NCBI RefSeq assembly: GCF_000243155.2 | Contig: NC_018017.1 | Span: 806,001 to 870,000 of the forward strand | Direction of reading: 5' to 3' | Origin: Desulfitobacterium dehalogenans ATCC 51507 | Lineage (GTDB): Bacteria > Bacillota > Desulfitobacteriia > Desulfitobacteriales > Desulfitobacteriaceae | DNA length: 64,000 nucleotides | Shown: positions 45,513 through 59,835 of the stretch, in pieces | Numbering within the stretch: position 1 is the first letter of the stretch | Layout of the letters: each line of letters begins with the position of its first letter | Program-made: the position numbers and the translations under genes | Notes under the pieces: model-generated | The model's database searches: none | The model's input: the letters and a program-made list of their open reading frames with translations, nothing else | Told to the model about the DNA's origin: nothing

Positions 45513-45703
45513 TCATGTTGCATCATTTTATCTTTTGGTGCATTTGCGTAAAATGAAGTACCTCCTCTGTGCACAAAAGCAAGTAGATACATTATTTAGT
45601 ACAGCTTTGCAGGTTGTTGTGTAAGATGCAGGAAAATTAAGAGGAAATAGGTAGTTTGTGGAGAATAAAGTTATAAAAGCTAATTTTGTAAGAAGCAATC
45701 CAA

Positions 45704-45946
45704 ATGACGATATATTTGAATTGCGAAAAGGGAAACTCAAAAGAATTATTCGTTTATTTTTCCTATACTAAGGAAAGAGTGCAGAAGATCAAAACCATGT
45801 CTATAAGAAGTTGGAATCCTGAAAAAAGACTATGGGTTATTCCCTATACACCTGAATCAATACACGAATTGAAAAGAATTTTCTCAGATGAAACGGTAAT
45901 AATTGACCCTGCGATCAATCTTGAACAAACTGAATCATTATATTAA
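45704..45946 (+). CDS. N-terminal domain of the recombinase, or separate small protein
   Basis: An 80-residue protein (ELFVYFSYTKERVQKIKTMS IRSWNPEKRLWVIPYTPESI). In some XerD-like recombinases a very similar segment (ending in a DPA motif, here IIDPAINLEQ) forms an N-terminal extension directly joined to the core. Here it ends in a stop eight bases before the recombinase core and in another frame, so it is either a split-off domain of a decaying recombinase gene or a separate partner protein. The family memory is from recall, not a search. Confidence 0.5.
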   Translation: MTIYLNCEKGNSKELFVYFSYTKERVQKIKTMSIRSWNPEKRLWVIPYTPESIHELKRIFSDETVIIDPAINLEQTESLY

Positions 45947-45953
45947 TTAGGAA

Positions 45954-46806
45954 ATGTCTTTGCAGCAGGACCTAGAGGCCATGGAGCAGCAGTTAATTCT
46001 CAAGGGCTTTAGTGATAAGACAAGAAAGGTCTACCTTGGGCATGTAAGTAAATTTTTTCAAGCCATAAAGAAAGACCCAAGAAATATCTCAAAGGATGAC
46101 ATACGAAGCTATTTGGCTGCTCAGCTTGAAGAGCGAAAAAAAGCCCATGCCTACGTAAGCCAAGCCCTTAGCTCCATAAAATTTCTGTTCAAGCACATAT
46201 TACGGCAAAGTATTGACAGTATGGATATTCCCCGACCCAAAAAGGAACAAAAATTACCGCAAGTCCTTAGCCAGGCAGAAGTAGCTAAGATTCTCTCAAC
46301 CGTTAAGAATATTAAACACAGGTCTATTCTCATAATTACATATTCCTCAGGACTAAGGGTTAGTGAGGTTGTTACGCTAACATTAAATGATTTACATCCA
46401 GATAGGAAATTGGTCCGCATCAAGCAGGGAAAGGGGAGAAAAGACAGGTATACTCTGCTTTCTGATACAGCAATGGAGGTTGAATGAATACATTACCTAC
46501 TATAAACCCAATAAGTGGCTATTTAGCGGCGAAGATCCGGAAACCCACATATCAGAGCGGACAATACAGGTAATCTTTAAGAATGCCTTAGCCAAGTCGG
46601 GAATTAAGAAAGATCTATCGGTCCATTCTTTAAGACACTCCTTCGCTACTCACCTTTTGGAATCAGGGACGGATATAAGATATATCCAGGAGTTGCTAGG
46701 GCACAAAAGCTCGAAAACAACTGAGATATATACTCACGTCAGCAATAAAGATTTAGGAAAAATAAAGAATCCCTTGGATTCAATATGGAAAAATGACCAA
46801 AATTAG
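45954..46806 (+). pseudogene. XerD-like tyrosine recombinase at the integron-integrase position, frameshifted
   Basis: Two pieces of one tyrosine recombinase. 45954-46487 gives the SAM-like core-binding domain (LKGFSDKTRKVYLGHVSKFF) and the first catalytic part (YSSGLRVSEV, Arg135; [14 protein letters not shown], Lys). From about 46475 the next frame continues [39 protein letters not shown] (His224, Arg227), [17 protein letters not shown] (His and Tyr nucleophile) to 46806. All six catalytic residues survive. A one-base insertion or two-base loss near 46475-46480 separates the frames. Arg135 to His224 is 89 residues, the XerC/D spacing; IntI proteins have about 130 owing to their extra domain. 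It ends 91 bases before the first cassette junction and shares the cassette orientation. Confidence 0.85.
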
Positions 46807-46816
46807 AACTGTTGAT

Positions 46817-46903
46817 AGAGGTAGGATTACCGCAATAACATGCGGTAATCCCTCTGGGGTGGTAAAAAATGCGCATGGATATTACGGTAAAAAGGTGTTA
46901 GAC
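46817..46903 (+). other. attI-like primary recombination site
   Basis: The junction heptamer GTTAGAC (46897-46903) starts the first cassette; its reverse complement GTCTAAC is the R'' box of that cassette's attC (47651-47657), so 46897/46898 is a used G^TT crossover point. It lies immediately downstream of the recombinase. Upstream is a strong hairpin, GGATTACCGCA (46824-46834) and TGCGGTAATCC (46841-46851) around ATAACA, extended by AGAG/CTCT. The arm GATTACCGCAA recurs in attC14, so the hairpin could be a collapsed attC, an attI feature, or the recombinase terminator. Confidence 0.75.
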
Positions 46904-46976
46904 GACATACCCGTTGCATGCACTTCTTTTATACTATACCAGAAAATAATAAAACCTCCGGATAAGGAGGTCAAGC

Positions 46977-47318
46977 TTAGCTATTTACTTCAACTATTCT
47001 ATCCAGAATTCTATCGAAATCGGGGCCGGGTACTTCACCGACAAACTCCAAAAGTTTATCTTGCTCAATACGGTAAATCTTATGGGTTTTTACATAAGAT
47101 GGCTCATTTAAACCGGCCCGACGCCAATTAATGATGGGTTCTTTAAACCGGTCATGATAAGTAGGAGGAATCTTTGGCTTAGAACTGGTTATTTCTGTGA
47201 TTGTAAACAGTTCTGAATCAGAATCCACATCAATGATAAGGATGGGTCTTATTTTGAATCGAGAGGGATCATCTTCGAAAAATATTTTTACACGGTAAAC
47301 TTCTCTAATATCAGGCAT
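46977..47318 (-). CDS. cassette 1: PemK/MazF-like toxin
   Basis: A 112-residue protein (MPDIREVYRVKIFFEDDPSR FKIRPILIIDVDSDSELFTI TEITSS ... DRFKEPIINWRRAGLNEPSYV) that resembles the PemK/MazF-like endoribonuclease toxins of clostridia. Encoded opposite to the cassette orientation, ten bases after its presumed antitoxin. Reverse-oriented, self-promoted toxin-antitoxin cassettes are typical of large sedentary integrons. First cassette after the attI-like site. Confidence 0.75.
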   Translation of the reverse strand: MPDIREVYRVKIFFEDDPSRFKIRPILIIDVDSDSELFTITEITSSKPKIPPTYHDRFKEPIINWRRAGLNEPSYVKTHKIYRIEQDKLLEFVGEVPGPDFDRILDRIVEVNS

Positions 47319-47327
47319 AGCTTAGTT

Positions 47328-47537
47328 CTACTTACCATCTTTATACCAATCTTGGTGTGCTTGGTCTTTTGGATTTAACTTAATCATTCCCTGGGGACCT
47401 GTTAGAATTTGTGCTTTGGAGGTGATTTTACTCAGTGCCGAATTATTTTCTTGAGGCTTCTTCTTTGCAGTTGAAGGCATCCCGTATTCCTCCTCGGTAT
47501 GTTGTTTTTCAATTCTATCCCTATCCTTATTATCCAT
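47328..47537 (-). CDS. cassette 1: presumed antitoxin
   Basis: A 69-residue charged, probably disordered protein (RDRIEKQHTEEEYGMPSTAK KKPQENNSALSKITSKAQIL), just ahead of the PemK/MazF-like gene and on the same strand, so the expected antitoxin by position. No DNA-binding domain recognised. AAGGTGG lies upstream of its ATG. Confidence 0.65.
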   Translation of the reverse strand: MDNKDRDRIEKQHTEEEYGMPSTAKKKPQENNSALSKITSKAQILTGPQGMIKLNPKDQAHQDWYKDGK

Positions 47538-47650
47538 ATCATACCACCTTCAATAGGCTTATTCAATAATTATAGTATGCCCGAAAAGCTAAGGATAGAA
47601 GAGAATTAAGACGAATCCATAAGTAGGATTTGGGGTCAAACGGGTACATC

Positions 47651-47726
47651 GTCTAACAGAGGAGTCCCGCAACTAGAGGATGATGTATGCGGTTGGGACG
47701 CTGCGGGACTCCTCGAAACGTTATAT
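47651..47726 (+). repeat. attC1 (integron cassette recombination site)
   Basis: R'' GTCTAAC, stem GAGGAGTCCCGCA / TGCGGGACTCCTC (perfect 13 bp), R' GTTATAT. Closes cassette 1, whose start GTTAGAC is the complement of this R''. Core sequence of the main attC family of this array. Confidence 0.95.
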
Positions 47727-47745
47727 GACATTTCCTGCAGGAACG

Positions 47746-47763
47746 CCCGCCGTCCATGGCGGG
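47746..47763. repeat. GTCCAT hairpin, start of cassette 2
   Basis: CCCGCC-GTCCAT-GGCGGG, 6-bp stem, 25 bases after the cassette start. One of twelve such hairpins. Confidence 0.85.
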
Positions 47764-47829
47764 ATTTAGACAAGAGATTATTTCGTACTTGTAGGTTCTT
47801 ACGAAATAATGAATGGGGGTACCCTTTTA

Positions 47830-48488
47830 ATGCAAGTTCAGATCAGCCACGATCTAAAAGAACGATGGGATAATTATGTTTAGGCGTATTGATATATTCT
47901 GCCAACGTCGAGGGAAGTTCTCCTCAATTGGTCGAGTTCTTTCAGAGAACGATTGATCAATTGAATAATCAGTATTCGATGCCTGAAATTGCCGATATAC
48001 CACATATTCGGTCAACACGAAATGCCTATAAAGCGTTGGGCAAATCTCCTTCAGACTACAGAAATGCTGCCGAGGCAATGCTTCGTCGAATCGTAAAGAG
48101 TAATGGTCTTTATCATATCAATAATGTTATTGATATTAACAATTTGATGTCTGTCACAACAGGTTATTCCATTGGTTCGTATGATACTGAGCAGCTTTCG
48201 GAACTAGTGGAGTTAAGAAGGGCGCCCGACGGAGAAAACTACCAGGGAATAGGGAAGGAGGCAGTCAATATTGAGCATTTGCCAACGCTTTACGATAGGC
48301 TGAGTGCTTTTGGCAATCCTACAAGCGATAGTAGGAGAGCAATGATTCAGACGGGAAATCGAACGATTATGACCGTGATTTATTCATTCGATGGTAAAAG
48401 TGATTTGCAAGAGGTGATCGATAGGTATTGTGAATTACTAATACAATACTGTTGCGTTGAGGAAATTAATACTATATTTGTCCTTTAG
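47830..48488 (+). pseudogene. cassette 2: B3/B4 (tRNA-binding domain) protein, frameshifted
   Basis: The body from 47889 (LIYSANVEGSSPQLVEFFQR ... IPHIRSTRNAYKALGKSPSD YRNAAEAMLRRIVKSNGLYH INNVIDINNLMS) is a B3/B4-domain protein related to the editing-like module of phenylalanyl-tRNA synthetase beta. The N-terminus MQVQISHDLKERWDNYV starts at an ATG at 47830 behind GGGGG but is in another frame; loss of one T in a T-run at 47879-47881 would join it to LGVLIYSA, the normal family start. So the gene looks frameshifted, unless a TTG at 47889 is used. Confidence 0.75.
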
Positions 48489-48560
48489 AGAGCAAATCCA
48501 AATTGGCATGTATCGCATTATTCTTAAATTGTAAACTAGTTATAGGAGTTGTCTGGGGGC

Positions 48561-48576
48561 GCGCCGTCCATGGCGC
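48561..48576. repeat. GTCCAT hairpin, end of cassette 2
   Basis: GCGCC-GTCCAT-GGCGC, followed by CTCTGGCTTCGCGGGGCAGG, a trailer shared with cassettes 6, 7 and 19. Confidence 0.85.
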
Positions 48577-48603
48577 TCTGGCTTCGCGGGGCAGGGAAAC
48601 GTC

Positions 48604-48679
48604 ATATAACACAGAATTCCCCGCAACTAGAGAATGATGCATGTGGTTAGGACGCTGCGGGAATTCCTAAATGTTATAT
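48604..48679 (+). repeat. attC2
   Basis: R'' ATATAAC, arms GAATTCCCCGCA / TGCGGGAATTC with one extra C on the left arm (an unpaired base, as attC sites carry), R' GTTATAT. Cassette 2 start and R'' match. Confidence 0.95.
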
Positions 48680-48717
48680 GACATGGTGCTATGAAAGAAA
48701 TTTGAAGGAGAGATAGG

Positions 48718-49632
48718 ATGCCATTATTTCAGATTAGGGACAATCTTGTTAGCTTAATTAGACCTTGCAACTTTAATTTAGAGAAAGATCTCCAAACATT
48801 AATTGAGGCAAATCTAGAAACTATCTTCAATTGCAAATTTGTGGCTTCTGAGTTTTCAACAGGGTACGAACATGCAGGTCGAATTGATTCACTGGCATTA
48901 TCAGAGGATGGCAATCCAGTGATTATAGAGTACAAGAAGGTAGAGTCTTCAGAGTTGATCAATCAAAGTTTGTATTATTTATCTTGGATAAAAGATCATC
49001 GCGGAGATTTCCAGATGGCAGTAAATAAGAAATTGGGTAGCCATGTAGAAATAGATTGGTCTGATGTAAGGGTTATTTGCATAGCCCCAGGTTACAAGAA
49101 GTATGACCTTCATGCCGTTCAAATGATGGGTGCAAATATTGAACTATGGCAGTATCGTTTGTTTGAAAATGGAGCTTTTTATTTTGAAGAGGTGTTTAGG
49201 AAAGGAACTTCAGGGGCTTCAATTCCCAATAAGGCTAGTCAAGGTAAAAAGATCGGTGATCAAGATATTACTATCACGTATACCTTTGAGGATCATCTAA
49301 ATAAGGCAGCATCTCATTTAAAAGATGTTATTGTGGACTTAAGAGAATGTATTCTCAATATTGATGAGGGTGTAGAGGAATCCCCTAAAAAGCAATATGT
49401 TGCATATAAGGTTACTCAGAATTTTGCATGCATGGAAATCCAAAAGAACAAGATTTTACTCTTTCTTAAACTTAACCCGTTGGAATTTCAAGACCTACCC
49501 ACCAATGCTAGGGATGTTAGAAGCATTGGGCACTATGGAACTGGGGACGTGGAGTTTACATTAACTTCAAAGTCAGATATAGCCGCAATGGGTGAATTTA
49601 TTAGAAAGGCTTGGGAACGTGTCGGGGGTTAG
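48718..49632 (+). CDS. cassette 3: PD-(D/E)XK nuclease-like protein with DUF5655
   Basis: A 304-residue protein. The N-terminal half has a restriction-endonuclease-like pattern: GRIDSLALSEDGNPVIIEYKK gives Asp57 and Glu71-x-Lys73, with a helix SELINQSLYYLSWIKDH after. The C-terminal region (YKVTQNFACMEIQKNKILLFLKL ... GTGDVEFTLTSKSDI) matches DUF5655. GAAGGAGAG precedes the ATG. Such stand-alone nuclease-fold proteins are candidate defence factors, but no activity can be claimed. Confidence 0.75.
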   Translation: MPLFQIRDNLVSLIRPCNFNLEKDLQTLIEANLETIFNCKFVASEFSTGYEHAGRIDSLALSEDGNPVIIEYKKVESSELINQSLYYLSWIKDHRGDFQMAVNKKLGSHVEIDWSDVRVICIAPGYKKYDLHAVQMMGANIELWQYRLFENGAFYFEEVFRKGTSGASIPNKASQGKKIGDQDITITYTFEDHLNKAASHLKDVIVDLRECILNIDEGVEESPKKQYVAYKVTQNFACMEIQKNKILLFLKLNPLEFQDLPTNARDVRSIGHYGTGDVEFTLTSKSDIAAMGEFIRKAWERVGG

Positions 49633-49641
49633 CACCACGTC

Positions 49642-49719
49642 ATATAACAAGGCATTCCCGACACTTGGAGGATGATGAATGTGTGTTGGGACGCGTCGGG
49701 AATGCCCAGAACGTTAGGC
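49642..49719 (+). repeat. attC3
   Basis: R'' ATATAAC, perfect 12-bp arms GGCATTCCCGAC / GTCGGGAATGCC, R' GTTAGGC. Arms differ from attC1 on both sides together. Confidence 0.95.
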
Positions 49720-49824
49720 GACAGAAATTGATTTGGGGTCTGTTGAAGGAATGATCTGGGGGGATGGACCATTAGAACACCGATCAGAATTCACAAATCT
49801 ATATATCGTAGTATTGTTTATATC

Positions 49825-50328
49825 ATGTTTAGCGGATTAGTTGCCTTAACAGCTTGCTCTACTTTGGATACGACATCAATAGATTCGGCACATCAGTTTG
49901 TTGTAGATACTGATACTGGTGACCAGGGACCAGTGCTTCGACTTTTAACCCAGGATAGAAAGGCGAAAATTGAAATCTTTGATGGAGAGTTTGCTGACGG
50001 AACGAAGATTTTGGAATCGGTTGTTTACGAACTGCGATTTGATAAATGGAACCAGATAACCATAGGGCAATCACCTTACAAGTCTAACGACCCAGTGAGG
50101 ATATCTGGTGGAGGCCAATTCGGAATAATCGAAGTCATTGATCCAAACATCATTTACGTGGACTATGAAACGCAAAAGGATAAGATACAATTGACTATCA
50201 TTCAGGTGAAATCTCGTAGATTCGTTGTCTATCAAAAGGTACAAGGAAACAAGGAGTATTATCAAATTCGCGGCGTTAGTAAAGATGGCGAAACTATATG
50301 GCAACTCTTCCCTGAGGGGTATTGGTAA
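49825..50328 (+). CDS. cassette 4: lipoprotein of unknown function
   Basis: At least 167 residues with a lipobox (SGLVALTACSTLD). In-frame codons upstream of the ATG at 49825 read IRTPIRIHKSIYRSIVYI, a good positive start for a signal peptide, and GGGGGGAT lies eight bases before an ATT at 49771, so translation may begin there at a non-standard codon. The mature part (GPVLRLLTQDRKAKIEIFDG ...) is beta-rich and not recognised. Confidence 0.6.
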   Translation: MFSGLVALTACSTLDTTSIDSAHQFVVDTDTGDQGPVLRLLTQDRKAKIEIFDGEFADGTKILESVVYELRFDKWNQITIGQSPYKSNDPVRISGGGQFGIIEVIDPNIIYVDYETQKDKIQLTIIQVKSRRFVVYQKVQGNKEYYQIRGVSKDGETIWQLFPEGYW

Positions 50329-50367
50329 CAGTAAGTATTTGGAGAAAAGTAGCAAGTGATTTCCGTC

Positions 50368-50443
50368 GCCTAACACGTCCATTCCCGCAACTTAGAAAAT
50401 ATGAATGTAATATGACGCTGCGGGAATGGCGAAAACGTTATCC
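50368..50443 (+). repeat. attC4
   Basis: R'' GCCTAAC, arms CCATTCCCGCA / TGCGGGAATGG, R' GTTATCC. Cassette 4 start GTTAGGC matches R''. Confidence 0.95.
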
Positions 50444-50460
50444 GAAACCGCACGTAATGG

Positions 50461-50478
50461 CCGCGCGTCCATGCGCGG
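50461..50478. repeat. GTCCAT hairpin, start of cassette 5
   Basis: CCGCGC-GTCCAT-GCGCGG, perfect 6-bp stem, different bases from the cassette 2 stem but same loop. Confidence 0.88.
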
Positions 50479-50665
50479 AACGGAGTGTGGTTGTTACTGC
50501 GCTCTTGTAGCAAAAGCGCAATTACCAAGATGTTTTAATGTATAGAATTATATTTTACGAACCTATTTTGTAAATAATATCGGAATTATTGCTTTCCAGT
50601 AATTCTAAGATTAGACGGAATAGATCCTTTGAGTTGGACAAGATCAATGTGGAGGTGATATACGG

Positions 50666-51211
50666 ATGAGACGGGTGCGATACCAGGTCGCATGTAGCAT
50701 GGATGGCTACATTGCGGCACCGAATGATGATTTTGATTGGATTACGCCAGAACCTTCGTTCGACTTTGAGGCGCTATATGCGCAGTTCGACACATTGCTG
50801 ATGGGGCGACGCACGTACGAGATCGTACGCGCAACGGGCGAGAGTTTTCGCGGAAAGCAAGTGATCGTGGTCTCGCGGTCGCTTCGGCCGGTGGATCATC
50901 CCGATGTTGAGATCGTGAGCGGGGGCATAGAAGCACGAGTTCGAGAGCTTCGTGCGCAATCTGGTCGAGATATTTGGCTCTACGGCGGAGGAAATCTCTT
51001 CTCCCAACTTCTCGCCTGGAATCTGGTTGATACGTTCGAACCGGCGATTATACCGATTCTTCTGGGAGGAGGGGTGCAGTTGCTCCCCCCGCACGGAATA
51101 AGTCGGCGTTTAAAGCTCGTCCGACACAGCGCCTATCCCAGTGGGATGCTTCTCCTCGAATATGAGGTGCAGCATGATGTGGAAGGCACGAATGAATTTG
51201 CAAGAGGATAG
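50666..51211 (+). CDS. cassette 5: dihydrofolate reductase-like (RibD C-terminal) protein
   Basis: A 181-residue protein of the RibD_C/DHFR-like fold (YyaP type): VACSMDGYIAAPNDDFDWI at the start, DTLLMGRRTYEI, VIVVSRSL, and DIWLYGGGNLFSQLLAWNLVDTFEPAIIPILLGGG, the NADPH-binding end. It is clearly richer in G and C than every other cassette, suggesting another source. This is not the DfrA/DfrB family behind trimethoprim resistance, so no resistance role is implied. GGAGGTGA precedes the ATG. Confidence 0.85.
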   Translation: MRRVRYQVACSMDGYIAAPNDDFDWITPEPSFDFEALYAQFDTLLMGRRTYEIVRATGESFRGKQVIVVSRSLRPVDHPDVEIVSGGIEARVRELRAQSGRDIWLYGGGNLFSQLLAWNLVDTFEPAIIPILLGGGVQLLPPHGISRRLKLVRHSAYPSGMLLLEYEVQHDVEGTNEFARG

Positions 51212-51348
51212 TTATAGTGCCAAACAAAGTCACGTTTTTTCGGGGTTTATTCCAATGGAGTAGAGAAAGTTTATACTTCATGCCTTATTTCAAAAGTCGT
51301 TACGATTATCCTAATTCTTATATATCATAAATAGGTGGAGGTTTAAGG

Positions 51349-51368
51349 GGCCGCCGTCCATGGCGGCC
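51349..51368. repeat. GTCCAT hairpin, end of cassette 5
   Basis: GGCCGCC-GTCCAT-GGCGGCC, perfect 7-bp stem. Confidence 0.88.
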
Positions 51369-51393
51369 TCTGAATCTGTGGGCGTACGGCATC

Positions 51394-51469
51394 GGATAAC
51401 AGAGGAGTCCCGCAACTAAAGGATGATGCATGTGATTGGGACGCTGCGGGACTCCTCGAAACGTTATAT
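51394..51469 (+). repeat. attC5
   Basis: R'' GGATAAC (complement of the cassette start GTTATCC), main-family stem GAGGAGTCCCGCA, R' GTTATAT. Confidence 0.95.
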
Positions 51470-51488
51470 GACATTTCCTGCAAGACCG

Positions 51489-51506
51489 CCCGCCGTCCAT
51501 GGCGGG
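51489..51506. repeat. GTCCAT hairpin, start of cassette 6
   Basis: CCCGCC-GTCCAT-GGCGGG in a 5' leader nearly identical to those of cassettes 2, 7 and 19. Confidence 0.85.
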
Positions 51507-51632
51507 ATTTAGACTAGAAACTTAATTTCGTACTTGTAAGAAAGTGTGTAGCAAAGATTATCTATATTTGCTCTGGAATATTTTTTTGTTTTATTCGTCT
51601 AAATAGACACGAAAAAGAAGGGGGGCTCGCTT

Positions 51633-52376
51633 ATGAAACAGTGGATTGGGTTCATCATTATAGTGTCAATAATAGTAACTCTTGCTGCATGTGGTAGCCA
51701 GAGCGAGACAACAATCAACAATAATGCTCAGCAGGATGAAATTCAAAATAGTGCCGTAGAAATCGTTCCACAAGAAAAAACAGATAGCACCGTAAGTGGT
51801 GAAATTATAAAGGAATTCACATCAATTGCTGACTTTAACCATGATGGAGTCAAGGAAACAGCAAAAGTGGTAGCCTTCGGTGATAAGGAGTATTTTGAAT
51901 TACAAATCTGCAGCTCTGAAGAAAACATTCTCTGGAAAACAGAGGCCGCTACGGCTCACATGGGCTGGCTTTCCCTTTTTCTATGCCAGTCAGATGGGAA
52001 AGATTATCTTTTGAAATATACCCCTTATATGTCACAGGGAGCGTGCCACTATCAATATGACTTGTTTTCTCTTGATTCATCAGGCAACGAAATCATAACC
52101 GACAGCGGTTCTGTACAATTTGATATAAATTTTGGTAGCCCGGTTCACTATTCCTTTAACACAGATGAAATCGCAGCCTTTATGAATGAGGTAAATGCGT
52201 ATCTCGAAAACAGTGTTGTTCTGCTCAATACGGATGGAAATCTAAAATTTAAAGATGGATCTCATTTGAAAGATACTCTGTGGTGGTTAGATGTCGAAGA
52301 CGGGTTCACATACGATAAAACAGCTAATCTTAGTGATATCCTGGCATCTTATAAAAAATTCCGTGAAAGCAGATAA
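51633..52376 (+). CDS. cassette 6: lipoprotein with EF-hand-like loop
   Basis: A 247-residue lipoprotein (MKQWIGFIIIVSIIVTLAAC, Cys20). The mature part has DFNHDGVKETAKVV, a D-x-N-x-D-x calcium-loop-like motif of the FG-GAP/dockerin kind, then a beta-rich region with WKTEAATAHMGWLSLFLCQS. No domain name can be given. GAAGGGGGG precedes the ATG. Confidence 0.7.
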   Translation: MKQWIGFIIIVSIIVTLAACGSQSETTINNNAQQDEIQNSAVEIVPQEKTDSTVSGEIIKEFTSIADFNHDGVKETAKVVAFGDKEYFELQICSSEENILWKTEAATAHMGWLSLFLCQSDGKDYLLKYTPYMSQGACHYQYDLFSLDSSGNEIITDSGSVQFDINFGSPVHYSFNTDEIAAFMNEVNAYLENSVVLLNTDGNLKFKDGSHLKDTLWWLDVEDGFTYDKTANLSDILASYKKFRESR

Positions 52377-52462
52377 TCTTACAACGAAAAATGAGCATAG
52401 CTTAAGTTTTAGATATGTCGCATCATTAGTATAATGTGAAACAAACTGGAACTACCTGAGGG

Positions 52463-52482
52463 GAGCGCCGTCCATGGCGCTC
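52463..52482. repeat. GTCCAT hairpin, end of cassette 6
   Basis: GAGCGCC-GTCCAT-GGCGCTC, perfect 7-bp stem, then the shared trailer. Confidence 0.88.
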
Positions 52483-52506
52483 TGGCTCCGCAGGGCAGGA
52501 AACGTC

Positions 52507-52582
52507 ATATAACAGAGGAGTCCCGCAACTAGAGGATGATGCATGTGGTTGGGACACTGCGGGACTCCTCGAGACGTTATAT
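52507..52582 (+). repeat. attC6
   Basis: R'' ATATAAC, main-family stem, R' GTTATAT. Confidence 0.95.
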
Positions 52583-52601
52583 GACATTTCCTGCAAGACC
52601 G

Positions 52602-52619
52602 CCCGCCGTCCATGGCGGG
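52602..52619. repeat. GTCCAT hairpin, start of cassette 7
   Basis: CCCGCC-GTCCAT-GGCGGG in the shared 5' leader. Confidence 0.85.
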
Positions 52620-52713
52620 ATTTAAACGAGAGGAACTAACAGCCTTATCTCGCACATGTAGGGTACTGGGAAATAAATCTTCAAGGTTCCAAAGGAGGTG
52701 TCGGATTTTAAAT

Positions 52714-53238
52714 ATGCATAATTTAAGGGGTTATTTAAGAATAAATCGATGCTTACCTATACTTTTATTATCAGCATTTCTAATCTCTGGATGTAGCACC
52801 TTCATGGCCTCTGAACTTAAAGGGTACTATAAGCCTCTTGTGGCAAGCCAATGCTCGTTAAATAAAGATGACATAGATAATCAAGAACAATATGCACAAG
52901 CAATAATAAGTGGTAATGAGGCTGCATTAAAATATTACTTTCAGATAGATAGTAAGGTCTATTATGTTTTGAGAGATGTCTTATATTCAAGAGAGGGGTT
53001 AGAAATAATTGCTCTACAGCCCAAATCAGAAGGATATTTCACTAACAAAGACAACTTATATTATGTTTATGGTTATGAGAAAGAAAAGAAATCAAATACT
53101 CTTGGAGGACCCGTTTATTATACCTTAAAGGATTATAAATACAGAAAGATAGATTTATCAACAAATAAGGAAATCGAAGTTACAAAAGATGAATATGAAG
53201 CATTATATTTTAACTTAGAAAATGAATTGGCTAAATAA
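52714..53238 (+). CDS. cassette 7: lipoprotein of unknown function
   Basis: A 174-residue lipoprotein (INRCLPILLLSAFLISGCST, lipobox LISGC). AAAGGAGGTG at 52691-52700 points to the ATG at 52714; an upstream ATG at 52612 lies inside the GTCCAT hairpin and is not a good start. The mature part is charged and tyrosine-rich (QIDSKVYYVLRDVLYSREGL) and not recognised. Confidence 0.68.
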   Translation: MHNLRGYLRINRCLPILLLSAFLISGCSTFMASELKGYYKPLVASQCSLNKDDIDNQEQYAQAIISGNEAALKYYFQIDSKVYYVLRDVLYSREGLEIIALQPKSEGYFTNKDNLYYVYGYEKEKKSNTLGGPVYYTLKDYKYRKIDLSTNKEIEVTKDEYEALYFNLENELAK

Positions 53239-53285
53239 CATTTTTCTTAAATTGTGAATCGGTTGATTAGGAATTGTATAGGGGC

Positions 53286-53301
53286 GCGCCGTCCATGGCG
53301 C
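53286..53301. repeat. GTCCAT hairpin, end of cassette 7
   Basis: GCGCC-GTCCAT-GGCGC followed by the shared trailer; the preceding 45 bases also resemble the end of cassette 2. Confidence 0.85.
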
Positions 53302-53327
53302 TCTGGCTTCGCGGGGCAGGAAACGTC

Positions 53328-53494
53328 ATATAACACGAGGATTCCCGCGAGGGTGCGGTTAGGAAAGCTTTTGGAGCAAGTCGCACCACATGTCCTCTGT
53401 CACAAGCCTTGCAATTTAGAGTTGAATCAAGAGAAGCAAGTCTTGCGCTAGCCCTGGCGGGACAGACACGTCGGGAATCCCGGGGACGTTAGGC
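53328..53494 (+). repeat. attC7, long form
   Basis: 167 bp, twice the usual size. R'' ATATAAC, arms GGATTCCCG / CGGGAATCC, R' GTTAGGC. The extra length is in the central, normally looped part and contains no gene. Cassette 7 start GTTATAT matches R''. Confidence 0.88.
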
Positions 53495-53520
53495 GACATA
53501 CGTATTGGGGGAATGAAATA

Positions 53521-54423
53521 ATGAAAATTGAAGAGGCATATAGCTATGACTATATGGATGTTGTGGATGCAGAAAAAGCATATGAACTTTTTTGGGAGGG
53601 TGTGATAAAAGATAAGCGGAATTTTGAATGCCCCGCACAAAACTGCAAAGCACAGATAACATGCTCTAATATTGATAAACAAATTGAAGAAATGAAGAAT
53701 ACTCCGCATTTTAGAGTGTATGGTGAACACAGCGATGAATGTGATATTTATAAAGAGATTAAACTTGCCGAGTTGGATGTGTCCACTGAAAAAAATAAAA
53801 GTCGGACAAGTTATTTGGGGTCGGAAACTGATATTTTCACAACGGAAAGACCCAAAAATCATTATCATACGAGGAAAGAGTCAGTAAAAGATAATGATGA
53901 CAAACATAAAGGAATTAAAACATCAATTCAAACTAATAGAGATAATAGCTTAACTAAAAGAAGCCCTGAATTTTATTCGATTAGACCGCTAATTTCCAAA
54001 TTCCAGCGCCATAGTAAAGAAAACAATTTATCTCAACGATTTATTAAAATAAAGGGCTATGATGTTAGTTACAAAGAAATGTTCGTAAAGATTGATAACA
54101 ATGAACTGGACAAATTAAGCAAGTATCCAAGAATTTATTTTGGTGAAGCGACTGTATACAGGAAAAACAACTCGGATTTTGTTGTCAGATTCGCATCTTC
54201 TATTATTGACGCTGATGTGAAATACAAGCCCTCTCTATATATTTCGAACGAAATGATTAATAGCTATTACTGGAAGCACAAGCTACAAACCTGTTTAAAT
54301 GAATTAGCATCAAATAGGGAGAAGCAAGTACTTGTTTTTGTGTACTCGAAGCCGTATAAAAAGGATAGATTTTTAAACTTCTACATAGATACGTTGGACT
54401 TAATAGATTTTAGATATTTGTAG
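53521..54423 (+). CDS. cassette 8: unknown protein with N-terminal zinc-ribbon-like cysteines
   Basis: A 300-residue protein. FECPAQNCKAQITCSN and, about 30 residues on, HSDECDIYKEI give a C-x4-C-x4-C ... H-x3-C pattern that could bind zinc. A charged, low-complexity linker follows, then a beta/alpha C-terminal domain (FIKIKGYDVSYKEMFVKIDN ... QVLVFVYSKPYKKDRFLNFY). No family recognised. GGGGGAATG precedes the start. Confidence 0.65.
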   Translation: MKIEEAYSYDYMDVVDAEKAYELFWEGVIKDKRNFECPAQNCKAQITCSNIDKQIEEMKNTPHFRVYGEHSDECDIYKEIKLAELDVSTEKNKSRTSYLGSETDIFTTERPKNHYHTRKESVKDNDDKHKGIKTSIQTNRDNSLTKRSPEFYSIRPLISKFQRHSKENNLSQRFIKIKGYDVSYKEMFVKIDNNELDKLSKYPRIYFGEATVYRKNNSDFVVRFASSIIDADVKYKPSLYISNEMINSYYWKHKLQTCLNELASNREKQVLVFVYSKPYKKDRFLNFYIDTLDLIDFRYL

Positions 54424-54433
54424 TATGTACGTC

Positions 54434-54510
54434 GCCTAACACGACCATACCCGCAACTAGAGGATGATGCATGTGGTTGGGACGCCGCGGGAATGGCGGA
54501 AACGTTATCG
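54434..54510 (+). repeat. attC8
   Basis: R'' GCCTAAC (complement of cassette start GTTAGGC), arms CCATACCCGC / GCGGGAATGG with one mismatch, R' GTTATCG. Confidence 0.95.
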
Positions 54511-54584
54511 GAAATCCTAGTATAATTTGAGCTTAAAAGAATTAACTAAATACTTTTCTAATGCGTTACAGAGAGAGGGATTTT

Positions 54585-54788
54585 ATGGTGTTATTTATCT
54601 GTTTACTACTAATTATATTAATAATTATAGTAATAGTGGATTGTAAAAAAAACAAAATTACCAAAATAGAAATTGTAAATCAATTCAAAAAAACACATAT
54701 TTTTAAATTCAAAAAACCAACAGCATTTACTGTTTTAGAAATGGTTACTGGGATATATTTTATGCTTCCAATTATAGGTTTTTTTTAA
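54585..54788 (+). CDS. cassette 9: small membrane protein a
   Basis: A 67-residue protein, if the ATG at 54585 (behind AGAGAGGGA) is the start: helix VLFICLLLIILIIIVIVDCK, basic linker, second helix. Followed by two more membrane ORFs in the same cassette. Unknown. Confidence 0.5.
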   Translation: MVLFICLLLIILIIIVIVDCKKNKITKIEIVNQFKKTHIFKFKKPTAFTVLEMVTGIYFMLPIIGFF

Positions 54789-54793
54789 GAATA

Positions 54794-55114
54794 TTGGGTG
54801 AGGAATATTTCAATTTTGTCTTAATAGCATTATTTCTGCCAGTAGCAATTTGTTTTTTAAATGTATGGTCGCAGTATAAATACGCAAAACTAGAAATTGG
54901 ATCTATGAAAATATTGTTTTCAGTTATTATTGTACCGTTTCTAATTTTGCTTAATTATATATTCTCGTCTCAGGATGCGTTAGAGACATACCATCTAAGT
55001 ATGTTTATCATTATAATTCCAGCAACTTTTTTTATCTCTGATGGAATATCTGATTTAGTTGAAGCTTTCAAAGAAGTAGGTTTAGAAAAAAATATCAGGA
55101 GAAAATATTTATAA
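54794..55114 (+). CDS. cassette 9: small membrane protein b
   Basis: A 106-residue hydrophobic protein with three membrane helices (FVLIALFLPVAICFLNVWS; ILFSVIIVPFLILLNYIFS; MFIIIIPATFFISDGISD). Five bases after protein a. Start is TTG with no clear ribosome binding site, so coupling or a frameshift fusion with a is possible. Confidence 0.5.
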   Translation: MGEEYFNFVLIALFLPVAICFLNVWSQYKYAKLEIGSMKILFSVIIVPFLILLNYIFSSQDALETYHLSMFIIIIPATFFISDGISDLVEAFKEVGLEKNIRRKYL

Positions 55115-55134
55115 AACTAATTAACAGGTATGTA

Positions 55135-55581
55135 TTGGGTAATTTTTTGTCGATTTACTCCTTCACCGCATTTATTTACTTGTTAGTTTATCAATCAAAG
55201 AGAAATGGTTCAATTTTCATAGATGAGTCGTTATTAATAGTCCTTCAAACAACATTCTTTTTAGCCTATTGGGGGGCAGCTTGGTTCTATTTGTCACAGA
55301 TATCTTTTACGAAGTTGAAGAATATTTTTTCTTCTTCAACAGTATATGGAAAAGATATTCCATGGAATGAAATGACGGAAATTAGTAAAATAGAGAAGAT
55401 TTTAATAACTAATATGCCATTATACTTATCTTTATTTCAAATATTACTTATTAATTTACAAATTAATTTTAAATTTGAGGTCGGATTCCAATTTGACTTA
55501 GTAATTGAATTGGTTGGAATTGTATTGGCTTGGGTCTCAGTTCGATATTTACAAAAAAAAGCTTTTGCTAAATTACTTTAA
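55135..55581 (+). CDS. cassette 9: small membrane protein c
   Basis: A 148-residue protein with about four membrane helices (FTAFIYLLVYQSK; VLQTTFFLAYWGAAWFYLS; PLYLSLFQILLINLQIN; LVIELVGIVLAWVSVRYL). Start appears to be TTG at 55135. With a and b it fills one cassette; the three may form one complex. Confidence 0.5.
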   Translation: MGNFLSIYSFTAFIYLLVYQSKRNGSIFIDESLLIVLQTTFFLAYWGAAWFYLSQISFTKLKNIFSSSTVYGKDIPWNEMTEISKIEKILITNMPLYLSLFQILLINLQINFKFEVGFQFDLVIELVGIVLAWVSVRYLQKKAFAKLL

Positions 55582-55646
55582 TAGGTTTTTTATCAAAAAC
55601 GACTGCATTTAATCAAAAATAAGAGCAGTTTATTTCAACGGACTTC

Positions 55647-55721
55647 CGATAACACAGAGTTCCCACAACTAGAGGATGATGAATGTGGTTGGGACGCTGC
55701 GGGAACTCCTAAACGTTATCT
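55647..55721 (+). repeat. attC9
   Basis: R'' CGATAAC (complement of cassette start GTTATCG), arms GAGTTCCCACA / TGCGGGAACTC, R' GTTATCT. Confidence 0.95.
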
Positions 55722-55757
55722 GAAAGTCGGCGGAACGAAAAAAGTAGCTGGTTAAGG

Positions 55758-56036
55758 CTACTTTGGTGGGAATACATCATCGTGAGTACCGATGATATAT
55801 AGTGTGTTGATTTGATCACTCGCTTTTGAAGTTACTTCAATGATAATACGTATCGACATATTGACACTGATTTCATAGAAGTTATCTGTCCCTTGAATTT
55901 TTTTGTATCGTAATGATGGATGAGTTGGGTCAGACATGAATAGCTCAATGGCTTTCTGGGCTTGTTTTAATGTTTTTGAGTCAAGCTGCCTGAATTGCTT
56001 ATCAAACTTTCGGGTAGATCTGAAGCACCTAGTCAT
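55758..56036 (-). CDS. cassette 10: RelE/ParE-superfamily toxin
   Basis: A 92-residue RelE-like protein (CFRSTRKFDKQFRQLDSKTL KQAQKAIELF ... NFYEISVNMSIRIIIEVTS ... LYIIGTHDDVF). The family includes ribosome-dependent mRNA interferases. It overlaps the AbrB-type antitoxin gene by four bases and is reversed relative to the cassette, so it must use its own promoter. Confidence 0.82.
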   Translation of the reverse strand: MTRCFRSTRKFDKQFRQLDSKTLKQAQKAIELFMSDPTHPSLRYKKIQGTDNFYEISVNMSIRIIIEVTSKASDQINTLYIIGTHDDVFPPK

Positions 56037-56317
56037 TGTTCAATACCATTGAGGAATTCGCGAATTGTACTAAACTCACGAACGTTACCTGATTCAACGT
56101 CATTTTTGGCTTCGAGCATATCGTTTTGGACTTTGTCAGACCAAAAATATGCTTGGTCGGAGGGGACTAGTTTCATAGGCTCAATGATGATTTTATTGTT
56201 ATCCATCCTAATGTCGAGAACATCACCTACAGAAATATTGAGTTTTTCTCTGATATCTCTTGGTAGGCTTATAAGGTTTCGTTTTTGGACGAAGATTCTA
56301 CGGGAGATAGCGGACAT
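56033..56317 (-). CDS. cassette 10: AbrB/MazE-type antitoxin
   Basis: A 94-residue protein with an N-terminal swapped-hairpin AbrB domain (LISLPRDIREKLNISVGDVL DIRMDNNKIIIEPM) that binds DNA and a C-terminal acidic tail that would cover the toxin. The ATG at 56317 follows AAAGGGTGA; a GTG at 56326 is also possible. Confidence 0.82.
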   Translation of the reverse strand: MSAISRRIFVQKRNLISLPRDIREKLNISVGDVLDIRMDNNKIIIEPMKLVPSDQAYFWSDKVQNDMLEAKNDVESGNVREFSTIREFLNGIEQ

Positions 56318-56422
56318 GAATATCACCCTTTCAGCTCTTTCTAATTACAGTATATGCGTAATTACGTAATAATGCAAATAAGGGAACAATTAATTGGGTA
56401 TTCCTATGGGGCGCCGACCTTC

Positions 56423-56498
56423 AGATAACAGAGGAGTCCCGCAACTAGAGGATGATGCATGCGGTAAGGACGCTGCGGGACTCCTCGGGACGTTATAT
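56423..56498 (+). repeat. attC10
   Basis: R'' AGATAAC (complement of cassette start GTTATCT), main-family stem, R' GTTATAT. Confidence 0.95.
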
Positions 56499-56573
56499 GT
56501 CATTCGCATATCGGGGCTGTTTTTTGGGTCACATTATAATTAATACGAATCTTTTGAGCAGAGTGGTGATTTT

Positions 56574-57074
56574 ATGACTAAGGATGAGCTTATAAATGTT
56601 CTTATCACCGGTCGTACAGAGTGTTATGTCAAGAAAAGTTCCTCTTACAATCCATACGTTCCGGGTGGTAAATATGATTGGGATTTTCAGGTTGCATGTG
56701 GAAATTATCTATTTACAGATTCGTACCGCGGTTTTAATCCATATAGCGGAGTCGAGTATATCTATGTAAAAGACCAGTCTAAGCCAATTTGGTCATGTGA
56801 TTATGTAGGATATGCATTTTCAAATGCAGGAGTTTCCGAGAAGGAGATTTATGGATTTCTGAAGAAGGGAAGAAGTAAGCACTTAACAGATTGTGCTGGA
56901 AATCTGTTAGCTGATTATTCCTTTAGAGACGGTAATTTTGATTATCAAACTAGGTTCAGTGGGGATCTCAAAGCAATCTTACAAATAGAGGAACTGTATT
57001 ATCATGGTACATTGGTCGGGATCCAAACATCTGCAGGCTATTTGAAGGTGCAAGAACGTGCGAACGACATATAA
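56574..57074 (+). CDS. cassette 11: DUF5680-like protein
   Basis: A 166-residue protein (GGKYDWDFQVACGNYLFTDS YRGFNPYSGVEYIYVKDQSK PIWSCDYVGYAF ... IEELYYHGTLVGIQTSAGYL) that resembles DUF5680. Its TAA stop (57072-57074) lies inside the R'' box of attC11, so the gene fills the cassette to the last base. Function unknown. Confidence 0.72.
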   Translation: MTKDELINVLITGRTECYVKKSSSYNPYVPGGKYDWDFQVACGNYLFTDSYRGFNPYSGVEYIYVKDQSKPIWSCDYVGYAFSNAGVSEKEIYGFLKKGRSKHLTDCAGNLLADYSFRDGNFDYQTRFSGDLKAILQIEELYYHGTLVGIQTSAGYLKVQERANDI

Positions 57075-57144
57075 CAGAGGAGTCCCGCAACTAGAGGATG
57101 ATGCATGTGGCTAGGACGCTGCGGAACTCCTCGAAACGTTATAT
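57069..57144 (+). repeat. attC11
   Basis: R'' ATATAAC, main-family stem with one change (TGCGGAACTCC), R' GTTATAT. The bases before R'' are GAC rather than the usual GTC, and pair with the unusual GTC following the preceding R' (56492-56501), extending the match to ten bases. Confidence 0.95.
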
Positions 57145-57239
57145 GAAATCGGTTTGCTTGATAATTTTAAGGGTCGAACAAATTATCTCATGTATTCATG
57201 GTTCCATATGTGGTATCATATAATTAGAGGGGAGATATA

Positions 57240-57491
57240 ATGACTAAACTAGACAAGCTATTTGCAGAGATAGTCAATAATCCAAAAGATGTTAAATTTG
57301 AAGATATTGATAAAGTTTTGAAGTACTATGGTTTTGAGCGCAGGAATGCTAAGGGTGGATCGAGTCATTACACATATTTTCATAGCTTACTACCCGATAT
57401 TTTGACTATACCGAAGAACAGACCCATTAAGGCAGTTTATGTAAAGAAAGCGATTAGTGCGATCCAACGATTAGATAGGGGCGAAGAATGA
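57240..57491 (+). CDS. hicA: cassette 12: HicA-like toxin
   Basis: An 83-residue HicA mRNA interferase (ferredoxin/dsRBD-like fold): FEDIDKVLKYYGFERRNAKG GSSHYTYFH with the catalytic histidine after GSS, then KAVYVKKAISAIQ. GGGGAG before ATG. Overlaps hicB by four bases. Confidence 0.87.
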   Translation: MTKLDKLFAEIVNNPKDVKFEDIDKVLKYYGFERRNAKGGSSHYTYFHSLLPDILTIPKNRPIKAVYVKKAISAIQRLDRGEE

Positions 57492-57856
57492 TGGGTAAAG
57501 ATTTAGAGTATTACCTCAACCTAGAATATGAAATTAAACTTAAGAAGCTTTCCCAAGAAGAAGGTGACGGGTGGTTTGCAGAAATACCTTTACTTCCTGG
57601 TTGCATGTCAGACGGTGAATCTTTAGAAGAAGCAGTTGAGAATCTAGGCGGTGCGAAAAGGGAATGGATTGAGGCCAGCTTGGAATTAGGCAGAGAAATT
57701 CCTGAACCCACAACTGATGAATTTTCGGGGCAATTGAGAGTTAGGATGCCTAAATCATTACATCGTACTCTTTCACAAATGGCTAAGGATGAAAATGTAA
57801 GTTTGAATCAGTTGATAATTCATCAATTATCTAAAGGAATTGGGTATAGATTATAA
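57488..57856 (+). CDS. hicB: cassette 12: HicB-like antitoxin
   Basis: A 122-residue HicB antitoxin: partial RNase-H-like domain (DGWFAEIPLLPGCMSDGESL EEAVENL) and C-terminal ribbon-helix-helix (LRVRMPKSLHRTLSQMAKDE NVSLNQLI) that binds the operon promoter. Same strand as the cassette, unlike the two other toxin-antitoxin cassettes here. Confidence 0.88.
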   Translation: MMGKDLEYYLNLEYEIKLKKLSQEEGDGWFAEIPLLPGCMSDGESLEEAVENLGGAKREWIEASLELGREIPEPTTDEFSGQLRVRMPKSLHRTLSQMAKDENVSLNQLIIHQLSKGIGYRL

Positions 57857-57869
57857 GATAGCCGACTTC

Positions 57870-57947
57870 ATATAACAGAGGGTTTGCGACATCGGGGAAT
57901 ACATCTTGGGTATTATTCCGACGTCGCAAACCCTCAAAACGTTAGGC
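57870..57947 (+). repeat. attC12, divergent stem
   Basis: R'' ATATAAC, perfect 13-bp arms GAGGGTTTGCGAC / GTCGCAAACCCTC, an inner GGAATA / TATTATTCC pairing, R' GTTAGGC. Sequence unlike the main family but same architecture. Confidence 0.95.
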
Positions 57948-57985
57948 GACAGACCTAGGTCATCTTTGAATGGGGGTAAAATGCA

Positions 57986-58585
57986 TTGACTTATATGTTT
58001 GACGATACTCAAGAAATGTCGTTAAAAGAGGTAGTCGGAAGAATAATCGATTTTAATTATAGCCTGAGGGATTTTTGGTCCAGTGCGAAAGGATGGGCAC
58101 CACCTGAAGCGGCAGATTTATTAACTCGTTCGAGGCTGGATTGGCAAGTATCGCTCTCCCATTGTCTTAATCTATGGTTAGAGGAAACGGTTAGTGAAGA
58201 GGCGGATGGACGATTAATTTTGGCTTGGTCAAATTTGGGAAGTTTGGTTGAAGGGACAATGAAATTATTATTATCTGTATTTTATAAGGACTATCTTAAT
58301 GATGTAGAGCAAGTCAAAAAGAGAGGGAAGTTAGTAGAGCCTGATCAACTCGAATTGGAACAGATGCGACAGTTTTTTAATAAAAGGATTTGGAAACCGG
58401 AAGATTCTTGGGATGAATGGATTTTACATATTCAATGGAGACGAAATGCGATTCATGCGTTCAAAGATCGTGAAATCGGATCGTTTGACGAATATCGAAA
58501 TGATTTACGGATGTACCTTAAATTCATGAGGTATGTAAACTTTAGACTTCCTTATCCTGATGAAATATTTATGCCGAGGTTTTAA
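57986..58585 (+). CDS. cassette 13: HEPN-like helical protein
   Basis: A 199-residue helical protein. WRRNAIHAFKDREIG (Arg152-x4-His157) fits the R-x4-6-H motif of HEPN RNases, preceded by helices WSNLGSLVEGTMKLLLSVFY. TTG at 57986 behind TGGGGGTA is the likely start. The HEPN match is based on one motif and overall helicity. Confidence 0.6.
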   Translation: MTYMFDDTQEMSLKEVVGRIIDFNYSLRDFWSSAKGWAPPEAADLLTRSRLDWQVSLSHCLNLWLEETVSEEADGRLILAWSNLGSLVEGTMKLLLSVFYKDYLNDVEQVKKRGKLVEPDQLELEQMRQFFNKRIWKPEDSWDEWILHIQWRRNAIHAFKDREIGSFDEYRNDLRMYLKFMRYVNFRLPYPDEIFMPRF

Positions 58586-58608
58586 TTGTGATGCTTTGCC
58601 GGTCCATC

Positions 58609-58684
58609 GCCTAACACAGAATTCCCCGCAACTAGAGGATGATGCATGTGGTTGGGACGCTGCGGGAATTCCTAAACGTTATCT
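58609..58684 (+). repeat. attC13
   Basis: R'' GCCTAAC (complement of cassette start GTTAGGC), arms GAATTCCCCGCA / TGCGGGAATTC with an extra C, R' GTTATCT. Confidence 0.95.
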
Positions 58685-58735
58685 ACAACTGGGCATGCAA
58701 GATAAAAAAAGTTTATCCTGTTTCGCTCGGACTAG

Positions 58736-58939
58736 ATGCAAGTAATTTTTATTGTCGCAAGGCAAGAGAACTATTACAGAGGTAGCTTAAATCCAGAACA
58801 AAGAGGGTTGTGGGCAGTCACTAAGGAGGAAAGTCTGGGGTACTCTATTTTATTACAACTGAGTATAGGATTTGCTGGGGCAGTCAGTTTTGGGTATTCC
58901 TATGAAGTGGTCAGTCTGTGGAGTCTCCGCTGTAGATAA
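58736..58939 (+). CDS. cassette 14: possible 67-residue protein
   Basis: The only open frame of the smallest cassette (324 bp): MQVIFIVARQENYYRGSLNP ... SILLQLSIGFAGAVSFGYSY. No ribosome binding site. Its TAA stop lies inside R'' of attC14, as in cassette 11. The cassette could instead be non-coding. Confidence 0.35.
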   Translation: MQVIFIVARQENYYRGSLNPEQRGLWAVTKEESLGYSILLQLSIGFAGAVSFGYSYEVVSLWSLRCR

Positions 58940-59008
58940 CACAAGATTACCGCAACTAGAGGACGATGCATGCGGTGAGGACGCTGCGGGAATCCCCGTC
59001 CGTTATCT
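58934..59008 (+). repeat. attC14
   Basis: R'' AGATAAC (complement of cassette start GTTATCT), arms GATTACCGCA / TGCGGGAATC with one mismatch, R' GTTATCT. The left arm resembles the hairpin near the attI-like site. Confidence 0.95.
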
Positions 59009-59063
59009 GAAACAGCCTGAAAGAAGACATGTTGTTATTATGGGCGGGAAATGCTTTAGCGGT

Positions 59064-59303: not shown

Positions 59304-59327
59304 AGATTCTTGTATAGTGAAGCTGGT

Positions 59328-59627: not shown

Positions 59628-59696
59628 GTAACCACCTCACTATTATCTTATTCAGAGGTGGAAGAGTGTGAGTTTTTGTTTGAGGTCGGCTGCATC

Positions 59697-59772
59697 AGAT
59701 AACAGCGAATTTGCAAAATCTGAGAGGGTATGAATGGATAACCAGACTTCGCAAATTCACAGAACGTTAGGC
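59697..59772 (+). repeat. attC15, divergent stem
   Basis: R'' AGATAAC (complement of cassette start GTTATCT), arms GAATTTGC / GCAAATTC plus CTG / CAG, R' GTTAGGC. Confidence 0.92.
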
Positions 59773-59835
59773 GAAAGACCATTTTTAGATAGATTTCACG
59801 TCTGGAGGTAGGTTTTTGAGAAGGGGGAAGAAAAT

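Follow-up and report, generated by a model that had tools for sequence, protein, structure and literature searches.

In the available text of PMC8946536, canonical attI sites are described as recognised in the form of duplex DNA by their sequence. The direct repeats DR1 and DR2 of attI1 are said there to be dispensable for recombination of attI1 with attI1 and to favour that of attI1 with attC, while the V. cholerae attIA has no such repeats, accessory sites not being universal. The I2 helix has been described as necessary for cassette capture and as absent from any other protein, and intermediates between Xer-type recombinases and IntI have been reported to be lacking, according to the available part of PMC7790495. 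The same text has the folded single strand of the CTX phage integrated by Xer proteins that carry no I2; thus, on that account, a missing I2 alone is no bar to folded substrates. In Firmicutes, one complete integron and a few CALIN are reported in the available text of PMC9024848. Among the titles and abstract openings of the open-licence PMC literature we recognised no description of an I2-less integron family or of double palindromes in attI, which is weak evidence, since subscription journals and preprints lie outside that body.

The present study concerns a cassette array of Desulfitobacterium dehalogenans ATCC 51507 and the site at its head, both found in a stretch of 64,000 nucleotides that is hereafter called the window. 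The relevant features of the window are as follows.

45704-45946 (+): integrase piece 1 of a broken gene, the N-terminal HARP-like domain (80 aa), ended by a stop codon
45954-46487 (+): integrase piece 2, the core-binding and first catalytic part, in another frame (similarity from 45921)
46480-46806 (+): integrase piece 3, the C-terminal catalytic part, in the third frame
46810-46903 (+): attI module, matched by model R2 at 107.3 bits, which is the highest score among the genome's three copies (the training set of R2 includes the one in the window)
46824-46851 (+): inverted box A (GGATTACCGCA) and direct box B (TGCGGTAATCC), a hairpin with a 6-nt loop (sequence, fold, motif scan)
46871-46876 (-): GCGCAT element at the position of box A' in relatives, CG at -13 (homologue comparison)
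46881-46893 (+): L box (B') as scanned, core CG at 46885, 12 nt 5' of GTT (profile scan)
46897-46903 (+): R box and first cassette junction, GTTAGAC (sequence, complementarity to attC1)
47648-47729 (+): attC1, whose R'' is complementary to the attI junction (model R1)
47648-63786 (+): the 19 attC sites of the array that lie in the window, more following to 909.6 kb of the chromosome (model R1)
58931-59011 (+): attC14, which carries the GATTACCGCAA arm (model R1)

We consider 46810-46903 to be probably a genuine double attI, in which boxes A and B would be accessory integrase boxes comparable to DR1 and DR2 of attI1, a reading drawn from sequence comparison. The evidence speaks more for a true attI than for an attC site that has collapsed. 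The only cognate integrase gene found in the genome is frame-broken; therefore, the attI of the window is probably inactive now.

The hairpin reads GGATTACCGCA-ATAACA-TGCGGTAATCC, a perfect 11-6-11 structure at 46824-46851, and the junction GTTAGAC at 46897 lies 45 nt 3' of its end. Counted from the core of the L box, the core CG positions in the window are -54 for box A and -42 for box B, while box A' gave no match above threshold in the L-box profile scan. An earlier note on this DNA had pointed to a perfect 11-bp stem ahead of the first junction, and such a stem is indeed present and rare: perfect hairpins with arms of at least 11 and loops of 3-10 occur at four distinct places in the 64 kb (nine overlapping matches), against 0, 0, 0, 0, 0, 0, 0, 1, 4 and 0 overlapping matches in ten dinucleotide shuffles. 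The note's junction is borne out as well by R'' of attC1, since 46896-46915 and 47639-47658 are complementary at 18 of 20 positions (90%). So is the match of the left arm of the stem to attC14, the 11-mer GATTACCGCAA having just two occurrences in the window, at 46825 and 58945, the latter inside attC14. We also agree with it that the site is the primary insertion site and that the hairpin motif is common to attC. Folded as DNA, 46811-46903 has a z-score of -3.38, equalled by none of 200 shuffles. An Rfam search returned two chance-level matches, neither of them at the attI site.

The further claim that typical attI sites do not fold in this way stands only in part. In a small control of three canonical sites, the 88 nt before the junction folded about as well as their shuffles (z of +0.11 for class 1, -1.21 for class 2 and -0.79 for Shewanella), and none of the three has a perfect compact stem of 9. 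However, the class 2 and Shewanella sites do carry repeats or palindromes: in class 2 an AT-rich repeat (8 of 9) encloses a loop of 4 nt, both have a repeat with an 18-nt loop beside the L box, and the Shewanella-type region shows, by eye, a near-perfect palindrome further upstream.

An integron attI has its insertion point, G/TTRRRY, where a cassette array starts, and GTTAGAC at 46897 is followed by 19 attC sites within the window. The covariance model for attC, R1, was built from 24 sites. At least 63 attC sites are present in the genome (150 of 1196 candidates scored), in three arrays: 52 at 853.6-909.6 kb (+), nine at 2679-2694 kb (-), and, in the smallest, two at 3368-3372 kb (-) plus one weaker site. 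The L helix is perfect and at least 6 long in 41 of the 52 sites, and in all those 41 the L'-R' side is 3-6 nt longer than the R''-L'' side, an asymmetry that resembles the spacer and extrahelical bases of canonical attC as given in the available text of PMC8946536. The first cassette holds a PemK/MazF-like gene that runs against the array direction (46977-47318, minus strand; PF02452, E 2.6e-6). A short hairpin around CCGTCCATGG (e.g., GCGCCGTCCATGGCGC) occurs 11 times near attC sites in the window, at 47743-47762, 48557-48576, 51347-51366 and eight more places, and similar ones are seen by eye at the same position in other genera (L055, L157).

Each of the three cassette arrays found in the genome (4,321,753 bases, one contig) is headed by an attI block some 90 bp long that contains the hairpin. 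A search of the genome with the integrase-attI DNA gave the second copy, with 86% identity to window positions 46813-46908, 2.5 Mb away and heading cassettes of its own. The third, with 73.6% identity over the aligned part, heads the array at 2.69 Mb. Model R2, run at E up to 0.01, adds no fourth copy to these in the genome. In the 20 and 26 kb examined at the second and third copies, nothing matched the integrase at E 1e-4. In arrays 2 and 3 the R'' of the first attC site is, by eye, an imperfect match to the junction. Also by eye, the second copy stands directly beside a CRISPR-like repeat array of the GTTTCAATTCCTCATAGGTAAGCTAAAAAC type (L003, about 10120-10310, near 3.373 Mb of the chromosome), and more such repeats lie near L003 6520-6680.

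Two of three other genomes of the genus have one copy each of the attI (86% and 82% identity), and none was found in the remaining one, which is 82% complete. Genome G040, from another genus of the same order, has three attI-like sites (L156, L157, L158), each 5' of attC sites, and an integrase remnant at only one of the three in the 15-17 kb examined around each. The hairpin is thus kept at arrays without an integrase match, which indicates that it goes with the insertion site rather than the integrase gene. At E 0.01, R2 matches were obtained in 5 of 398 genomes of the phylum, R2 being specific to near relatives.

Beyond these near relatives, the same plan is found 3' of the integrase in the distant family, with an inverted box A, a direct box B (together the hairpin), an inverted box A', the L box and a GTT 12 or 13 nt further on. 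The hosts of this integrase family include Bacillota, archaea, Nitrospirota, Spirochaetota and others. In a search of 82 sources (loci L119-L140 lie outside it), R2 matches outside the training set fell just 3' of the integrase stop codon and on the same strand at L054/L075 (one locus entered twice), L059, L073, L081, L077, L058, L106, L113 and L064. These matches are mostly weak (E 0.00015 to 0.95), so it is their shared position that constitutes the evidence.

A scan for the boxes covered 80 loci, after removal of two duplicates and of loci without a stop codon, shorter than 110 bp or with runs of N. An R-box GTT with CG or CA 12 or 13 nt 5' of it was present in 64 loci, and 16 had no L and R box by this rule; as the rule demanded CG or CA, the L-box core is partly imposed. 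A profile (AgTTCGTAAATaA) trained on the L box alone was then run over the upstream DNA, where its matches on the minus strand gave box A (-42 to -55) and box A' (-7 to -14), and those on the plus strand box B (-35 to -43). With these ranges, which were chosen after the result had been viewed and were applied alike to shuffles, box A was in place in 49 of the 64 loci, B in 45, A' in 40, A and B together in 42 and all three in 30, the corresponding shuffled fractions being 0.046, 0.046, 0.028, 0.003 and 0.000. Boxes A and B were both in place in 33 of 46 loci when one Paenibacillus and one Saccharibacillus were retained, and in 28 of 38 when the order of the window was also removed. Furthermore, arm B is more similar to the L box of its own locus (0.588) than to those of other loci (0.526; 0 of 5000 permutations, 49 of 85 loci usable), a modest within-locus similarity among loci many of which are related. 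This likeness of arm and L box, together with the order of the boxes, fits a role like that of DR1 and DR2 for the hairpin arms. In 19 loci, many of them from Paenibacillus and Saccharibacillus, the scan gave an extra box on the plus strand (-71 to -75). In Paenibacillus-type loci such as L078, L082 and L123 it stands some 36 bp, or roughly one repeat period, 5' of B.

Around 48 integrases of the family, a strict R''-L''-L'-R' finder gave 76 attC-like sites over the 330.0 kb that lie downstream and 23 over the 385.5 kb that lie upstream, some single matches, e.g., at L094, looking like chance. Two or more such sites lay downstream in 21 loci and upstream in three. Clear attC sites beside an uninterrupted integrase frame are present in Saccharibacillus (L120), Acididesulfobacillus (L073) and Nitrospirae (L110) and also at L057 and L059. 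L066 and L130 also have clear attC sites, but the adjoining integrase frames contain stops.

The site would belong to a type of integron with a XerA-like tyrosine recombinase that has no I2 helix and bears a HARP-like domain at its N terminus. In the genome of the window, the next best match to the integrase is a generic Xer-like protein with 36% identity. The open frames of relatives (n = 11) are 292 to 418 aa long, seven of them 362-384. The spacing between KGxxDR and HxLRH, which contains I2 where it exists, amounts to 58-61 residues in 73 rows out of 86, the other 13 being unscored (two loci entered twice, the broken copy of the window not included), as against 100 in IntI1, 99 in the Shewanella phage IntI and 100 in Rctr41k. 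Alignment with VchIntIA gives two blocks that are 56 residues apart in that protein and 14 in the family. The I2 (patch III) insertion that marks a canonical IntI is therefore absent from the family. With NCBIfam, relatives fall at XerA/integron-integrase models, L050 reaching 229.6 bits with NF040815, above its cut-off of 220 bits. With the IntI model TIGR02249 (cut-off 265 bits), all three proteins tested score below; no protein passed this cut-off in the six genomes checked, but neither did any in 14 control genomes, so that a positive control is missing.

In a tree, five I2-bearing IntI form one clade (100/100) without any of 39 family rows, and eleven Xer-like rows form another (100/99); the family rows lie outside both and need two changes. 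With midpoint rooting, the Xer clade branches from among the family rows and the IntI lie across a long branch, although the root is uncertain and the IntI rows are few. The closest folds to the integrase were archaeal Xer 4a8e (Z 22.1, rmsd 8.9, 258 aligned) and XerA 5hxy (Z 21.2, rmsd 11.6, 247 aligned); VchIntIA 2a3v gave Z 18.9 (rmsd 6.1, 256 aligned), the matches listed covering the recombinase part only. A 301-aa Xer-like recombinase frame also lies inside a cassette array of G003 (G003:C1:727445-728254, minus strand; L048), possibly as cassette cargo.

In 22 of 32 members, the N-terminal 80 or so residues match the Pfam HARP family (PF07443) with an E value of 0.1 or less, the best being 1.6e-5; the copy in the window gives E 0.053 and 13.5 bits, below the cut-off of 25 bits. 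A profile of the domain has the SMARCAL1 HARP structure 4o66 as its top PDB match (E 0.0039). The predicted fold (pLDDT 83) ranks T4 UvsW first (Z 8.2, rmsd 2.1, 67 aligned), followed by CASTOR1 (Z 7.1), eIF1 (Z 6.1) and XPB (Z 5.7, rmsd 2.8, 66 aligned), while the SMARCAL1 HARP fold, at Z 4.1 (rmsd 1.9, 48 aligned), comes below some unrelated proteins. Foldseek gave HARP as its best match at E 0.24 and nothing at E 0.001. Since the unrelated CASTOR1 and eIF1 stand above XPB and HARP and the Foldseek result is weak, the match of the predicted domain to a HARP/UvsW-like fold is suggestive only.

The architecture of the site, its recurrence and the lack of I2 are computed results; how the hairpin works admits of other explanations. 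The main one is that the hairpin acts in folded form, through cruciform or single-strand extrusion, and is read by shape, perhaps by the HARP-like domain, so that the attI would be recognised partly by structure. It takes this place by virtue of array 2, in which both hairpin arms have changed together while the L box is standard; such a paired change with a kept L box fits base pairing better than sequence-specific binding. In eight homologues the hairpin pairing holds in 91.9% of stem cells, against 24-44% in slid versions, and the compensatory pairs number two, both in array 2, with 14 of 500 shuffles as good. In addition, the stem of G003 is extended to 14 bp, four chosen family members (L157, L118, L096, L077) fold strongly, with z of -4.9 to -7.7, and the N-domain resembles domains of UvsW/HARP-type helicases, which bind branched DNA. 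We nevertheless regard this explanation as unlikely. The arms also match the L-box motif, which pure structure would not require, and the core spacing is not fixed within the family, running from about 7 to 13 nt. L157 and L077 fold best not as the A-B hairpin but as a long structure that spans both units. The poor hairpin of G050 and the best DNA folds of G047 and G049, which pair arm A with the L box instead of box B, weaken the case for folding further. Besides, quasi-palindrome correction during replication can create paired changes without selection. The long, attC-like fold of arm A with the L box was itself rejected as a candidate, as it is best in G047 and G049 but broken in array 2, where A-B is kept; A-B pairing is accordingly preferred over it.

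Other explanations appear far less probable. The earlier note had proposed that the attI is an attC site with a collapsed middle, leaving an attC-by-attC array with no true attI, and the 11-mer common to the hairpin and attC14 speaks for this, as do the L-box-like arms that stand in the same order before GTT in attI and attC. Yet R1 gives no match at 46810-46903 at E up to 0.5, no conserved R'' is seen by eye upstream of the hairpin, and the block recurs as a unit at three arrays, evidence that largely contradicts such an origin. The double-palindrome attI is also found in distant phyla, and the same plan there makes the site look ancient rather than local; with this layout 3' of related integrases in many phyla, the denial of a true attI is not supported. 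We therefore deem the collapse very unlikely, while a common ancestry of attI and attC boxes is conceivable. That the hairpin is a rho-independent terminator or attenuator of the integrase gene is highly improbable. Its stem does contain G-C pairs and lies just 3' of the integrase stop codon, but a scan that required a T-run finds two terminator-like sites in 45600-47700, neither of which is the hairpin. The hairpin-to-GTT spacing is conserved, and arrays 2 and 3, like two of the three G040 sites, have the hairpin but no integrase match in the stretches examined. The note had named a terminator conserved with the recombinase in cassette-free genomes as what would overturn its reading; the opposite was observed, the hairpin being retained at cassette arrays that lack the recombinase or have it only in broken form. 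Equally improbable is a dif-like crossover site, in which the 28-bp palindrome would be the duplex substrate of a Xer-like integrase. The geometry of dif is 11-6-11, the same as here, and the recombinase fold is nearest to archaeal Xer/XerA. However, the arms face the wrong way, their outer ends corresponding to the crossover-side end of the L box, the spacing varies across the family, and the first junctions are located at GTT and not in the loop.

If the site is, as we favour, a genuine attI with accessory boxes, it would be double, one inverted pair being A with B upstream (the hairpin) and the other A' with the L box. The R box GTTRRRY, 12 or 13 nt after the L-box core, would be the point of strand exchange. 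Boxes A and B may be bound by integrase protomers on double-stranded DNA and could aid the assembly of the synapse; in the window, 42 bp, or some four turns of the helix, separate box B from the L box. Solo attI copies would be served in trans, or their integrase may have been lost.

A broader proposal is made tentatively, our confidence in it being a little below even. The family may represent a distinct and ancient integron class in bacteria and archaea, in which an I2-less XerA-like integrase captures cassettes, its HARP/UvsW-like N-domain reads folded attC sites, and a double-palindrome attI occurs in several solo copies, each seeding an array and all served by one integrase in trans. If true, I2 would no longer be exclusive to, or required for, single-strand cassette recombination. 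The surprise would lie in cassette capture and not in folded DNA as such, because the Xer proteins of CTX integration already act on a folded single strand, according to the available text of PMC7790495. Widespread natural I2-less integrases adjoin attI sites and attC arrays, and the question of how integrons arose thus becomes directly testable. The two-palindrome attI also provides a sequence signature for insertion sites without an integrase gene, of which a genome may hold several, and suggests that some arrays filed as CALIN may belong to a different recombinase.

Compared with known systems, the site resembles attI1 in being a duplex site whose L/R core lies at GTTRRRY and which has two more integrase-binding sites 5' of it, as we read boxes A and B. 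It differs in that DR1 and DR2 are direct repeats, whereas the upstream boxes here stand inverted to each other and make up a compact hairpin; attI1 folds about as well as its shuffles and lies 5' of a divergent intI1, whereas the present site lies 3' of a codirectional integrase. The likeness to dif and its recombinases is in the catalytic fold, nearest to archaeal Xer/XerA, and the difference is in the neighbouring attC arrays, the extra N-terminal domain and the asymmetry of the attI. The archaeal integrons, as described in the available text of PMC9668308, likewise have an attI directly downstream of intI, cassette arrays and the canonical insertion point, but their IntIs are reported there to have the IntI-specific additional domain, which the present family does not. 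With CALIN, which the available text of PMC9024848 describes as attC clusters without a recognised IntI, our arrays share the attC clusters; in contrast to them, they have an attI and, in many relatives, an adjoining uninterrupted integrase frame that is not an IntI.
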